Part shown: positions 11,650-16,350 of the stretch, piece by piece
Layout of the letters: every line of letters begins with the position of its first letter
Position numbering within the stretch: the first letter of the stretch is position 1
Source: Spongiibacter taiwanensis
GTDB taxonomy: Bacteria; Pseudomonadota; Gammaproteobacteria; Pseudomonadales; Spongiibacteraceae
Length of the DNA stretch: 64,000 bases
Reading direction: 5' to 3'
NCBI RefSeq assembly: GCF_023702635.1
Contig: NZ_CP098455.1
Coordinates: 1,488,001-1,552,000 of the forward strand
Notes under the pieces: model-generated
Databases searched by the model: none
What the model saw: the letters and a program-made list of their open reading frames with translations, nothing else
What the model was told of the DNA's origin: nothing
Program-made: the position numbers and the translations under genes

Positions 11650-14358
11650 TTAGAACTGGTACTGAACGCTCGCACTCAAGGTCATACCCACTTCTTCCTC
11701 GTAGGTGACTTTGCCGTCACGCTCGATCTCCACGCCCTGATCCAGAATGTTCTTCAGCTTTATTTTGAAGATCACCGAATCGGTGGGGAAGAATGAGTAG
11801 GTGAAGTCCAGCGAGTGGAAAGGCTGCTCGTAGGCATCGGGCTCACCGTTACGACCCGCAAAGTACAAACGCTCACCAAACACGTTATAAGACAAGGTGG
11901 CGGCGTGCATTTCGTTCGGAGAGTCATAACCGATAATAAAGTTCGCTGCATAATCTGAAGCACCTACCAGCTCCCGCTCGGGGTTAGTTGGCGCATCTGC
12001 ATTCTCACCAGCAACCAGCTCAGAATCGAGCAGCGTAAAGTTACCTTGCACAAAGAACGGTGTCAGCGAAGGCGCGAAATCACCGAGGGTCTTCATAAAT
12101 TCAACTTCAATACCGGTAATTTCTGCGCTTTCGGCGTTGATGATTTCCACCGCCGTGTTGGTATCACCTGCCGCTGCCTGGAACTGCTCAATCGGATCGG
12201 TAATGTCCTTGTAGAACAGCGAAACCGTCAGGTTGTCGCCATTGCTGAAGAACCATTCGGCACGTATGTCATAGTTCTTAAACTGAGCAGGTACTACGTC
12301 AGGATTACCAAAAACCAGGGCGCCGGTGATTGGGTCGACATAGCTGGCATTGGCAATTTCCCGAAGGTCCGGGCGCACGGTGGTCTCACTGAAACCAAAG
12401 CGCAACTGAAAGTCTTCCGCGAAGAAGCCCGGACGCATGTAGGTTACTGCCAACGAAGTGTACATGTCGTCGTCGGTAAACACCGCGTCCGCCAGTTCCT
12501 GGGCAATCGCCTCCTGGCCACCGCTCTCGCTAGTGACCACAGGAATGCCGTCGAAATCCAGCGGGTCCCAGGTGAGACCAACTTGCTGATAGTCTTCCCA
12601 GCGCAAACCGGCAACCACCCGCCAGGTATCCAACCAGGTCACATCAAACTTACCGTAGTAAGCGTCTACTTTATTCACCGCGATGTAACTCTCAGAGTTA
12701 CTGCCCGCAACGCCAACTTGGTAGCCGTAATCCGGATTGAGAATATTGTCGTCGCTGTAGACATCGTCGAGCTTTCCAGCCAAGGGCGCATCGGGATCGA
12801 CGGTGCCAAGGCTAAACTGGGTCTGACGGTAGGTCCGCGCCTTTTGCCAATAGTCCCAACCACCGCTCAACTTGATCGACCAGTCCATAAAGTCGAAGGG
12901 CATTGACGCTTCCCAGCCATAGCTTTCTACCTGATCTTCCAGATCGGTAAAGCGATAGTCAGCGGAAGAGCTGTTGCGGTTAACAGTGGTTGTATTGGTA
13001 TTAAAGTTAGTCGACGCACCAACAGCAACTTCGTTGGGGATTTCTGTGGTTGACTCGCTGTCGGAGTAGTACCAGTCAAAGCCAAGGCCCTCAGCAAATG
13101 ACAGCCAATCGAGGTTCAGCTGCTCTAACGTCGCTTCACCGAGCTTGTGAGTCCCTTTGATCTGATGTACTTCCAGCTCGCGCTGTTCATAGCGAATCCG
13201 GTACAAACGGTTGGCGACACCACCACTTACGGGGCGCTCGTTATCGTAGGCATCCGTGATCGAGACTTTATCATCGGTGTTGCGCAAGAAAATACTGGTT
13301 GTTTCAACCGAGTGATCTTCATTGAGCCGCACGCCAAAGCCGAGGTTGAAGGCCATGGAGACATTCTGAGTGGTTTCTTTCTTCGACTCGAAAATATCGT
13401 CGTCGTTTACCGCCCGGGCAGTAGAGGATTTATTGCGCCACTGGCGGTCGTAGGAGAAGCCCGTCAGGAAGCCGATTTCGGTTTCCTCTGCATCACCAAT
13501 GTAATAGCGATTACCGAGTGCAACCTCACCGGAAAAGTCTGGATCGCCATCCACTTCATAGGTATCGATATTGCGGTATAGCTCAGTTGCCAGTTGGCGA
13601 TTCACCGCCTCGGCGTCAGCCAGCGTTGCATTGGGGTTGGACTGACGCATTACCGCCAGGATATCGCTGCGATTGAGACTGCCACCGTAAGTTCGCAGTG
13701 CCTGACGAAGCGTAGAGGACAGTGCACGGGTACCATCGTCCTCACCTTCAATATCGGAGCCGCCCCCCTTGTAGCTCAGGAAGTCACCGTCAGACTCGGT
13801 GTTCATGCCGGTGCCAAGCTCAAGGTTAAAAACAAAATCAGAGGGGATGCCTTTAGTACGGATATCGACACTACCGCCACCGAAGGCCGCAGGCATATCC
13901 GAGGAATGCACTTTTTGAACTTGCAGCGATTCCACGATAGAGGTCGGGAAAATATCCAGCGGAATAACACTGCGCGACAAGTCTGGCGACGGTACATAGG
14001 CGCCATTGAGCAGCGTGCTTGAATAACGCTCACCCAGACCGCGAACGAAGACGTACTTGTCGTCAACCAAAGTGACACCGGGTACCCGGCGAAGGGCTGC
14101 GGCGACCGTTGAATCACCTACCCGCCCTATAAAATCCGAGCCAATAATGTCGACCGCTACTTCCTGTTCAAGGCGCTCCATCACCACATCTTCGGCACCA
14201 CTCTTCAACCGGCCAACGACTACTACTTCCTCGACAGGTTTGATAGCGACCGGCTCCATGCTCGGACCGTCTTCCTGCGCTGTCGCCTGAATCGCTGCAC
14301 TCAACGCAGTCAGCGTAAAGGCCGGCAACAACGCTTTTTTCATCACATGATTTTTCAT
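11650..14358 (-). CDS. TonB-dependent receptor (partner of beta-helix lipoprotein)
   Basis: A 902-residue outer-membrane receptor. A signal peptide (MKKALLPAFTLTALSAAIQATA) precedes a TonB-box-like EEVVVVGRL at about residue 43. The plug (about 55-190) has DSTVAAALRRVPGVTLVDD, VRGLGERYSSTLLNGAYVPS and FGGGSVDIRTKG. A long 22-strand-type barrel ends in SVQYQF. This RGLGERY subclass is common in marine gammaproteobacteria and in Xanthomonas and Caulobacter, and its ligands are mostly unknown. It lies 100 bp downstream of the lipoprotein gene in the same orientation and should share the Pho-box promoter at 16.2 kb. The pair suggests capture of a phosphate-containing or phosphate-linked macromolecule (inference). 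Confidence 0.9.
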   Translation of the reverse strand: MKNHVMKKALLPAFTLTALSAAIQATAQEDGPSMEPVAIKPVEEVVVVGRLKSGAEDVVMERLEQEVAVDIIGSDFIGRVGDSTVAAALRRVPGVTLVDDKYVFVRGLGERYSSTLLNGAYVPSPDLSRSVIPLDIFPTSIVESLQVQKVHSSDMPAAFGGGSVDIRTKGIPSDFVFNLELGTGMNTESDGDFLSYKGGGSDIEGEDDGTRALSSTLRQALRTYGGSLNRSDILAVMRQSNPNATLADAEAVNRQLATELYRNIDTYEVDGDPDFSGEVALGNRYYIGDAEETEIGFLTGFSYDRQWRNKSSTARAVNDDDIFESKKETTQNVSMAFNLGFGVRLNEDHSVETTSIFLRNTDDKVSITDAYDNERPVSGGVANRLYRIRYEQRELEVHQIKGTHKLGEATLEQLNLDWLSFAEGLGFDWYYSDSESTTEIPNEVAVGASTNFNTNTTTVNRNSSSADYRFTDLEDQVESYGWEASMPFDFMDWSIKLSGGWDYWQKARTYRQTQFSLGTVDPDAPLAGKLDDVYSDDNILNPDYGYQVGVAGSNSESYIAVNKVDAYYGKFDVTWLDTWRVVAGLRWEDYQQVGLTWDPLDFDGIPVVTSESGGQEAIAQELADAVFTDDDMYTSLAVTYMRPGFFAEDFQLRFGFSETTVRPDLREIANASYVDPITGALVFGNPDVVPAQFKNYDIRAEWFFSNGDNLTVSLFYKDITDPIEQFQAAAGDTNTAVEIINAESAEITGIEVEFMKTLGDFAPSLTPFFVQGNFTLLDSELVAGENADAPTNPERELVGASDYAANFIIGYDSPNEMHAATLSYNVFGERLYFAGRNGEPDAYEQPFHSLDFTYSFFPTDSVIFKIKLKNILDQGVEIERDGKVTYEEEVGMTLSASVQYQF

Positions 14359-14398: not shown

Positions 14399-14422
14399 AG
14401 AGGGCGCCGTAGGGCGCCCTCT
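14399..14422 (-). other. Intercistronic hairpin between lipoprotein and TonB receptor
   Basis: A perfect 10-bp stem AGAGGGCGCC / GGCGCCCTCT with a 4-nt loop lies in the 99-bp gap. It has no T run on the minus strand, so it looks more like an RNA-processing or differential-expression element that protects the lipoprotein message than a full terminator. Confidence 0.55.
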
Positions 14423-14457: not shown

Positions 14458-16146
14458 TCACTCAAACCACAGGGCTTGACCGCGATTGGCGGGATCCAGG
14501 CCATAAGCCCAACCGGCAGTCCAGTCGTCATCGGCAGTCACAGCACCGACAAAGGCACGACCTTCGGTGGGGGTAACGGTAGCAGCAGCACCGCCAACAA
14601 CCATGTCACCAACCAGCAGCGAGTAGAAACCATCCAGAATTTCCAGGTTGGCATTGCTGGCAGACGTGGGGTCTTCGCCGGTGTCCTGAGACATGTAGGC
14701 TTGGTTGCCAGAGTTCACCAGGAATTGCTCAGTGGTAGTACCGCTTTCAGCCAGATCCGCACCATTGGTCAGGTCGGCACAGGCAAAGATCGACTCTTCA
14801 ATCACCAGATCACCGTCGAGAGCAGCTTGCTGACCTTCGTTGTCGATGCGGACACACCAGTTAGCATTGCCGGGAGCTTCATCGCCTTTGTACGCAGTGG
14901 TAACCAGTGCGTTGGAGATATGGGGGAAGTGAGCCTCACGGATACGCAGACCCTGACCTTCTTCATGAGTACCCGTACCATCGGCATCGTTAATATCTGG
15001 CTTACCGCTTACCTGATTTGGCGAGATGATGCAGGTCAGGTTCTTGATAGTGGCGCGAGAGTTCAGACCGCGAGCGATCAGGTCAGCAACATCGGTACGC
15101 CCGTCGTAGCTGCCTACACCGTCAGATTCCACACAGCGGTTGCCATCGGTGGCAGACTGAATAACCAGCGCGTAGTCGATAGTGCCTTGGTAACCTTCGT
15201 CGATATCGATCGAGTCATCGTTAACATACAGCGCGATGTAGTGGCTGATGTTGACCGCGCCACCGAACATTTCGATACCATCATCGTAGGTCGCATAGGC
15301 TTGCAGGTAATCAACTTTGGTGCCTGAACCTACCGCGTTGAAAGAAATACCGTTCAGTTCGTTGTCTTCTTCAACCTGGGCACCAGTGTGCTTAACGATG
15401 AAGTATTCGAGCTCACCAGAGCTGTCAGCGTTGTTATCACCGCCGTAATGGGTCTGGCCAGCGCCAGCTTTACCCTCTGCGGCAACGTGACAGTCAGTTG
15501 TCGCCAGGTCGTTACCGGCAACAGAACCAGTGTACGCACACTTGTTGGTTACACCGAAACCATTGATGATCAGACCGCCCCACTGCTGCACGTCTTCTGG
15601 ACCAACGGCGTTCTCGATGGCATCGCTTACCGATGTGATGGTAATGGGGTCGTTCATCTCGCCATTTGCGAAGATTTGAGAACCACGGTTGATTACCATG
15701 TAGTCGTCAGAGGACTGGAACGCCAGCGTCGCACCAGCTTCAATCTGGATTACAGCGCCGTCGCCGCCTTCGCTGATACCCGCACCAGACAAGCCGGCAT
15801 CGGAGTTGTAGTTGCGACCAACTACCAGGCTGTCACGGAAGATGTGTACACCGCTGTTGGCCAATTTGGTGAATACCACAGGCGAGTTGGCAGGGGTTTC
15901 GATGGGGTTTGTCAGGCTGACAAAGTCGGTGCCGTATACGCAGTTCACACCGTCAACTGAACCCTGGCGGGTAATGCCATTTTCGCTGTAGCTGGCACAG
16001 TTGTTAGTGGTACCGGAACCGCCACCGTTGCCGCCGCCATTGTTTGAAGAGTTGTTCTGCGCATTGATGTTGACGTCACCGCCACCGCCACAGGCAGCCA
16101 GCAATAATGCTGAGCTCATCGCTGATAATGCAAAAACCTTTTTCAT
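14458..16146 (-). CDS. Secreted lipoprotein, parallel-beta-helix-like, paired with TonB receptor
   Basis: The ATG at 16146 (GGGAG upstream) gives 562 residues beginning with a clear lipoprotein signal, SSALLLAACGGGG; the reading frame is longer but the extra 26 residues are not needed. A Gly/Asn/Ser linker (about residues 30-50) leads to a repetitive body: IQIEAGATLAFQSSDDYMVI, GSQIFANGEMNDPITITS, WGGLIINGFG, GELEYFIVKHTG and GIEMFGGAVNISHYIALYVN, a pattern that suggests a right-handed beta-helix. Five or more Cys may form disulfides. I do not recognise a catalytic motif. Relatives are often mislabelled as transporters. It is first in an operon with the TonB receptor and is probably a surface-exposed substrate-binding partner (inference). 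Confidence 0.75.
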   Translation of the reverse strand: MKKVFALSAMSSALLLAACGGGGDVNINAQNNSSNNGGGNGGGSGTTNNCASYSENGITRQGSVDGVNCVYGTDFVSLTNPIETPANSPVVFTKLANSGVHIFRDSLVVGRNYNSDAGLSGAGISEGGDGAVIQIEAGATLAFQSSDDYMVINRGSQIFANGEMNDPITITSVSDAIENAVGPEDVQQWGGLIINGFGVTNKCAYTGSVAGNDLATTDCHVAAEGKAGAGQTHYGGDNNADSSGELEYFIVKHTGAQVEEDNELNGISFNAVGSGTKVDYLQAYATYDDGIEMFGGAVNISHYIALYVNDDSIDIDEGYQGTIDYALVIQSATDGNRCVESDGVGSYDGRTDVADLIARGLNSRATIKNLTCIISPNQVSGKPDINDADGTGTHEEGQGLRIREAHFPHISNALVTTAYKGDEAPGNANWCVRIDNEGQQAALDGDLVIEESIFACADLTNGADLAESGTTTEQFLVNSGNQAYMSQDTGEDPTSASNANLEILDGFYSLLVGDMVVGGAAATVTPTEGRAFVGAVTADDDWTAGWAYGLDPANRGQALWFE

Positions 16147-16201
16147 TGAAGTATCTCCCAACCCTGTAAGTTGTCTTGCTAGGTTTGTGTATATGCCGCG
16201 T

Positions 16202-16256
16202 ATACTAGGCAGGGTTAGTGACACAACTGTGAAACAAATCTTTCACTTTTGTTACA
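16202..16256 (-). promoter_or_regulatory. Pho-box array and -10 element of the lipoprotein/TonB operon
   Basis: Read on the minus strand, four units spaced exactly 11 bp follow one another: TGTAACAAAAG, TGAAAGATTTG, TTTCACAGTTG and TGTCACTAACC (16256 down to 16213). The last two resemble the E. coli Pho box CTGTCAT-N4-CTGTCAC. Exactly 10 nt after the final TCAC comes TAGTAT (16207-16202), the same spacing as the -10 of E. coli phoA. The lipoprotein start is 55 bp further on. This supports PhoB control under phosphate starvation. Confidence 0.65.
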
Positions 16257-16350
16257 GCCGCTTTCCTCGCTGTTTGCGTTAAGCCGCGCTGCTCAGCAAT
16301 CGCATTGCTGACCTTATCGATTCAAATTCTTCGGGTAATTGAGCGTTCTT

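Follow-up and report, generated by a model that had tools for sequence, protein, structure and literature searches.

A conserved Pho-box array ahead of a lipoprotein and TonB-dependent receptor gene pair in Spongiibacter taiwanensis: a probable phosphate-starvation operon

Results

The gene pair and its promoter region

We analysed a window of 64 kb (G000:C1:1488001-1552000) from the 3.71-Mb genome, which consists of one contig. The minus strand carries a lipoprotein gene and, 99 bp downstream, a gene for a TonB-dependent receptor on the same strand. As shown in Table 1, the lipoprotein gene is preceded by four 7-bp units at exact 11-bp steps (16257-16218, minus strand), with the spacers aaaa, attt and agtt. 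The array starts at 16257, one base outside the interval delimited at first, which ended at 16256. The ten bases taaccctgcc separate the final TCAC from TAGTAT, and the ATG at 16146 lies downstream of both the array and TAGTAT. In E. coli phoA, the distance from the Pho box to the -10 element is also 10 bp. The preliminary description of this DNA was exact on the four units at 11-bp spacing and on the 10-bp distance, and it correctly placed an RGLGERY-type TonB receptor gene after the lipoprotein gene, the lipobox and the plug motif both being present. It had taken the last two units as the nearest to a Pho box, and this had to be corrected; the strong units are the first and the last, and units 2 and 3 are weak.

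Table 1. Features of the lipoprotein-receptor locus (window coordinates; unit scores from the phoB/pstS unit matrix).
Feature	Position	Strand	Description
TonB-dependent receptor gene	11650..14358	minus	902 aa, RGLGERY in plug
Intercistronic G+C hairpin (predicted)	14400..14421	minus	in the 99-bp gap between the two genes; the window interval has z -3.87
ElpS-like lipoprotein gene	14458..16146	minus	562 aa, lipobox LAAC (Cys19), predicted all-beta, beta-helix-like
Probable ribosome-binding site GGAG	16155..16158	minus	read from sequence
-10 element TAGTAT	16202..16207	minus	10 bp past the last TCAC
Pho-box unit 4 GTGTCAC	16218..16224	minus	strong, 7.9 bits
Pho-box unit 3 GTTTCAC	16229..16235	minus	weak, 0.6 bits
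Pho-box unit 2 GTGAAAG	16240..16246	minus	weak, -7.4 bits
Pho-box unit 1 CTGTAAC	16251..16257	minus	strong, 9.0 bits

The pairing is widespread among relatives. In 150 of 159 loci, the lipoprotein and receptor genes were at most 2.5 kb apart on one strand; the lipoprotein gene came first in 131 loci, the receptor gene in 19, and 9 showed neither order. These counts are not independent, since some genomes were entered twice and many orthologues are close kin. The lipoprotein gene was found in 17/18 genus genomes, and homologues, with other beta-helix paralogues counted, were found in 67/194 genomes of the order, 31/369 of the class and 52/398 of the phylum. The nearest lipoproteins among named records were those of Neomelitea salexigens, Spongiibacter marinus and a Zhongshania MAG. 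A G+C hairpin was predicted in the same intercistronic interval in the 12 sequences folded, that of the window included (z -1.05 to -4.16), in most of them with no long U run. It perhaps serves 3'-end protection or partial attenuation, and may allow more lipoprotein than receptor to be made.

The genome also encodes a paralogue of the lipoprotein, P0003 (548 aa; L155:6518-8164, minus strand), in which a membrane-anchor-like stretch takes the place of a lipobox. Genes for a histidine kinase and a LytTR regulator lie downstream of it, and upstream there is a Pho-like site of moderate score (10.8 bits). No receptor was found among its neighbouring ORFs scanned.

The array stands out in the window

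A Pho matrix was built from the best 18-mer of each of 30 phoB/pstS upstream regions, drawn from a search of 18 genus genomes, and 20 distinct sites were kept. Lipoprotein promoters were excluded from the training to avoid fitting the matrix to the site, and L153 and L154 were dropped. The matrix detected the promoter of the genome's own phosphate-selective porin O/P gene (L334, G000:C1:3385285-3386388, minus strand), which is outside the training set and whose Pho boxes score 19.7 and 17.4 bits. The preliminary description had proposed a scan of the region with a PhoB weight matrix. When all window positions were scored on both strands, the 18-mer of units 1 and 2 ranked 2 and the last unit pair ranked 16. 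With four in-register units summed, the array scored 15.4 and was the top of the window on both strands, the next place reaching 7.2; none of 60 base-shuffled windows reached the score of the array, the best giving 14.4. The highest-scoring single 18-mer (21598, minus strand, 15.1 bits) coincides with the beginning of a coding sequence that presumably resembles hflC, and was put down to chance.

A degenerate pattern of the 40-bp array, derived from the window site and its relatives, matched one place in the whole genome with up to 3 mismatches allowed. A genome search with a two-unit consensus was uninformative (773 matches vs 1039 for the reversed control). A sigma-70 scan found no site; this is weak evidence, and such a site is expected to be missing because the promoter would be activator-dependent. 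The genome encodes PhoB (344 bits; cut-off 296.2), as do all 18 genus genomes above the same cut-off.

The 11-bp register is conserved upstream of orthologues

We aligned the promoters of 15 genus members, the window's included, from the 17 genomes with the gene (L004 and L164 were left out). The register of the array was kept without gaps in all 15, with a mean information of 1.32 bits within the array vs 0.17 in the 34 bp just upstream, and TCAY-N10-TANNRT was common to all of them. Spongiibacter marinus DSM 17750 (L033) carries the same array. Unit 4 was nearly invariant within the genus, and unit 3 was NNTTCAY in most relatives. Unit 2 was CTGAAAY-like in most and canonical in L003, L158 and L165, where units 1 and 2 have swapped strength while the 11-bp register is unchanged. 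This swap at constant register favours direct repeats over a palindrome. Some loci outside the genus (L006, L035) have the canonical CTGTCAC as unit 2. In 66 other upstream regions, of which only L004 and L164 belong to the genus, strong units recurred at 11 bp 11 times, at 22 bp 17 times, at 33 bp 8 times and at 44 bp 3 times, whereas other distances averaged 0.15. Loss of the 11-bp repeats upstream of orthologues, which had been named at the outset as grounds for giving up the idea, was thus not what we found.

The matrix gave a similar picture. Among 80 orthologue upstream regions, 52 had a forward-strand site at p<=0.05 and 35 had one at p<=0.01, vs 16 and 5 for the reverse strand; 28/80 lacked any at p<=0.05. 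When each gene was given a single start, 42/90 lipoprotein promoters scored at least 13.8 vs 0/161 control promoters, and at p<=0.01 the counts were 37/90 vs 0/161. The controls come from loci L032-L092, and L032-L034, L048, L064 and L067 (duplicates) as well as L042 and L083 (too short) were left out of the 80- and 90-member sets. At least two units in register were found in 75/144 pair promoters vs 18/519 controls (four duplicate loci excluded), a comparison slightly biased to the pairs, for which up to six candidate starts were tried and the best kept, vs one start for controls; the one-start set is the fairer of the two. The controls also favour 11 bp, with 18/519 vs 3 to 9 at the other periods tested.

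The array is not uniformly distributed. Arrays were found in only 4/19 receptor-first loci and in only 11/20 loci having Pst/Pho neighbours. Microbulbifer stands out as the exception, as none of its 13 named loci had two in-register units; a hexamer starting TA, 10 bp past two related units, is nevertheless retained in 9 of the 15 upstream regions searched. The 13 PstS-like promoters of Microbulbifer had Pho-matrix scores of 11.1 to 18.7, and no PstS above the family cut-off was found in this genus. In Bacteroidota-type relatives (L087-L091), the order is reversed, with a receptor gene (RGLGDRY or RGLSERY) followed by the lipoprotein gene; three of these five loci have at least two Pho-like units upstream, which may be chance.

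Pst and Pho genes lie beside the pair in several lineages

Pst/Pho genes were found in the fetched flanks of 16/98 flank loci, representing 13/62 genera and often on the same strand, and beside the pair in 6/61 named loci; the score limits for these neighbours were chosen after data inspection, and L064 and L237 are the same contig. The chance rate of such a neighbourhood is about 1 percent per genome, as estimated from cluster size alone. No Pho gene was found in the flanks of 49/62 genera, none of 20 alphaproteobacteria-like loci had Pst/Pho neighbours, and the window locus (L266) has no Pst/Pho gene above the set limits beside the pair.

Several of the arrangements are compact. L232 has pstS-pstC-pstA-pstB-phoU-lipoprotein-receptor on one strand, L223 and L224 have receptor-PstS-lipoprotein-pstC-pstA-pstB, L071 has phoU-pstS-pstC-pstA-pstB-lipoprotein, and L084, L085, L210, L330 and L331 have phoB-phoR-pstS-lipoprotein-receptor. 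NCBIfam profiles confirmed PhoU, PstC, PstA and PstB of L071, PstB and PhoU of L035, and PhoB, PhoR and PstS of L084; the family match of PstS was below the cut-off in L071 and L085, and the neighbours at the other loci were assigned by tblastn. In L082 (Pseudidiomarina), L084 (Alteromonas), L085 (Glaciecola) and several other loci, the receptor gene is followed by genes for DUF3450 and two ExbB-type proteins. In the close relatives L032, L033 and L255, a phosphate-selective porin gene with its own Pho boxes is oriented divergently from the pair (Pfam was run on L032 only). The gene neighbourhood backs a role under phosphate limitation independently of the motif.

Some loci showed further peculiarities. 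In L084, L085, L209 and L330, the lipoprotein (about 920-950 aa) contains the domain twice, and its gene is followed by those for the receptor, DUF3450 and two ExbB-type proteins. In L050, L058, L074 and similar loci, a gene for a PhoB-like regulator lies directly upstream of the pair, and further upstream there are ABC-type permease-like genes (FtsX/MacB domains, one tested) and a gene for a 403-425-aa protein that had no Pfam match in the one tested. The PhoB-like regulators upstream of the pair in Woeseiaceae-type loci were rejected as PhoB, with 217 and 224 bits vs the cut-off of 296 in the two tested.

Predicted structures and relationships of the two proteins

The lipoprotein had no Pfam match, and its profile matched no solved chain. 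Cys19 was invariant among 52 aligned sequences. An AlphaFold2 model made with these 52 sequences had a mean pLDDT of 89.3, with low confidence at residues 1-43 and mainly short strands in the rest. Its best matches among solved structures were mostly proteins with what we take to be beta-helix folds (tailspikes, pectate lyase, GH110, AlgG), none of them with E<=0.001. As to the parallel beta-helix suggested earlier, the model is nearly all beta and its top matches are mostly of this fold, but none of these matches is significant. The invariant positions include many glycines and acidic residues, and the most conserved motifs, DDGIE and DDSIDID, are acidic, which would fit the binding of a metal or a sugar better than that of bare phosphate.

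The receptor has a plug and a barrel (PF07715, 38.9 bits, cut-off 23.9; PF00593, 95.4 bits, cut-off 27). It scored 209.2 bits with TIGR01782 (TonB-Xanth-Caul), under the cut-off of 310, and its sequence matched none of the solved chains at E<=0.01. The model of the receptor had a pLDDT of 80.0, and receptors for haem, siderophores, copper and transferrin are among the nearest solved folds listed. Searches of solved structures with both proteins, by sequence and by fold, named no ligand.

In a midpoint-rooted tree of 135 receptor sequences, from which 11 near-duplicate loci were omitted by choice, Pho signs (array or neighbours) appeared in a lipoprotein-first branch linked to type II secretion (T2SS) genes and also in the main lipoprotein-first clade of 89, except its Microbulbifer branch. 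Receptor-first forms, Bacteroidota included, fell outside this main clade. Matches to both GspD and GspE were found near the pair in 20/159 loci, some with the layout lipoprotein-receptor-gsp; at L301, GspD and GspE were above the profile cut-off and GspC below. The lipoproteins of the T2SS-linked loci matched with profile E values of 1e-54 to 1e-76 (eight alphaproteobacteria-like) and BLASTP E values of 6e-30 to 8e-102 (12 compared). No GspD or GspE match was found in a 20-kb stretch at the window locus.

Discussion

Taken as a whole, the likely explanation of this locus is a PhoB operator in front of a phosphate-starvation operon whose lipoprotein and receptor capture and import a phosphorus compound. 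This reading starts from the array, its conservation, the pairing of the genes and the pst/pho neighbourhood in relatives. Its parts are not equally firm. PhoB very probably controls the pair, and the preliminary description is supported on this point as far as sequence goes, by the matrix counts of 42/90 vs 0/161 and by the conserved register. A role in phosphorus acquisition is very likely as well, and that this role consists of the capture and import of a phosphorus compound is, on balance, probable. When phosphate is low, phosphorylated PhoB would bind the tandem units of the 40-bp array and, with the same spacing as in E. coli phoA, would bring RNA polymerase to a promoter that lacks a good -35 element. 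The operon would then yield a lipoprotein presumably anchored at the surface and a TonB-dependent receptor, which most likely act together at the cell surface in catching a phosphorus compound. The receptor would import this compound to the periplasm, where phosphatases and PstSCAB could take over. The preliminary description had suggested a phosphate-bearing macromolecule as the substrate; free phosphate, a small ester of it or a metal would be equally possible.

A more specific form of this explanation, which we put forward tentatively, is that the two proteins form the outer-membrane step of high-affinity phosphate uptake, with TonB supplying the power. The beta-helix lipoprotein would concentrate phosphate or a small phosphate ester, and the receptor would pump it to PstS. 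Some lineages look as if they have a single pst operon of the order receptor-PstS-lipoprotein-pstCAB, and in others ExbB-type motor genes stand alongside. If this were true, oligotrophic marine bacteria would not be reliant on porin diffusion alone for phosphorus, which limits growth across much of the ocean. To our knowledge, little is known of how phosphorus compounds pass the outer membrane of heterotrophic bacteria.

Another explanation keeps PhoB control and gives the lipoprotein the work proposed for ElpS (CC0170) of C. crescentus, an outer-membrane surface lipoprotein of about 50 kDa that is induced by phosphate starvation. It would raise the activity of secreted or surface phosphatases, or hold them, and be shed, with the job of the receptor separate or secondary. 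In the available text of Le Blastier et al. 2010 (PMC2996285), overproduction of ElpS raised extracellular alkaline phosphatase, although ElpS had no such activity itself, expression of the receptor CC0171 was constitutive, and a change in intracellular phosphate was not detected after a shift to poor medium. The GspD and GspE matches in 20/159 loci point the same way. However, the window locus has no such match in its 20-kb stretch, and the two genes form one apparent unit behind one Pho array, with the receptor close to the lipoprotein in nearly all loci. We consider this explanation unlikely.

It is also improbable that the pair imports a metal, such as calcium, zinc or iron, for starvation phosphatases, in which case Pho control would be real and the cargo would contain no phosphorus. 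The conserved acidic motifs of the lipoprotein speak for this, as does the receptor model, whose nearest solved receptors among those listed were mostly iron-siderophore, haem, copper and transferrin receptors, the last with a partner lipoprotein; such receptors dominate the solved set. Against it, the recurrent neighbours identified were Pst/Pho genes, which is a weak point, as neighbours were scored for functions other than metal uptake. A regulator other than PhoB, for instance one reading the inverted repeat GTGAAA-N6-TTTCAC that units 2 and 3 form (16246-16229, without mismatch in the window, with TGAA...TTCA kept in many genus members), has very little to recommend it and was rejected, because it is the register that is conserved rather than the palindrome: weak and strong units exchange places in three relatives at a constant 11-bp register, unit 2 can be canonical outside the genus, and direct-repeat distances of 11, 22 and 33 dominate.

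With phosphorus capture and import as the favoured reading, a Pfam-less family that promoter and gene order tie to PhoB/Pst in several lineages offers a direct genetic handle. ElpS of Caulobacter would gain a general setting, and the partner receptor itself is predicted to be part of the phosphate response here.

Comparison with known systems

The pair resembles SusC/SusD in having a surface lipoprotein gene beside a TonB-dependent receptor gene. SusD is alpha-helical and its gene follows susC, whereas the lipoprotein of the window is nearly all beta in the model and its gene precedes the receptor gene; a SusD-type alpha-helical lipoprotein was ruled out by this model together with the missing Pfam match. 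TbpB/TbpA is likewise a lipoprotein co-receptor with a TonB-dependent receptor, and TbpA is among the folds nearest to the receptor model. In that system, unlike the window pair, iron is both cargo and control. The phosphate-selective porin O/P (PF07396) shares with the pair the idea of an outer-membrane phosphate route under PhoB. It is a passive porin, whereas in the window receptor only the TonB-receptor domains PF00593 and PF07715 were above cut-off, with no PF07396.

An organophosphate hydrolase-TonB complex of Sphingobium fuliginis has been proposed to support TonB-dependent transport with an organophosphorus compound as phosphate source; the partner there is an inner-membrane phosphotriesterase, and the available part of that paper mentions no such lipoprotein (PMC7142613). 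PhoB-dependent TonB receptors are reported from Caulobacter in the accessible text of PMC11208175.

The closest likeness is to ElpS and CC0171. According to the available text of PMC2996285, elpS adjoins the TonB receptor gene cc0171 and a T2SS cluster, ElpS homologues occur in Shewanella and Bacteroides, and a role in phosphate mobilisation was proposed by the authors. The window pair shares the lipoprotein signal and the adjacent TonB-dependent receptor, and the family of its lipoprotein includes loci with the layout lipoprotein, receptor, T2SS genes. We file the pair as ElpS-like with the reservation that the likeness runs via the T2SS-linked relatives, the ElpS sequence itself being outside the comparison. 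The pair differs in that one Pho array lies ahead of both genes, whereas CC0171 is reported as constitutive in the same text. In the literature covered, which mostly leaves out subscription papers and preprints, no Pho array ahead of such a pair and no union with pst operons was described. What appears new is that both genes lie behind one conserved Pho array, and that such pairs are recurrently united with pst genes and, in some relatives, with ExbB-type motor genes.
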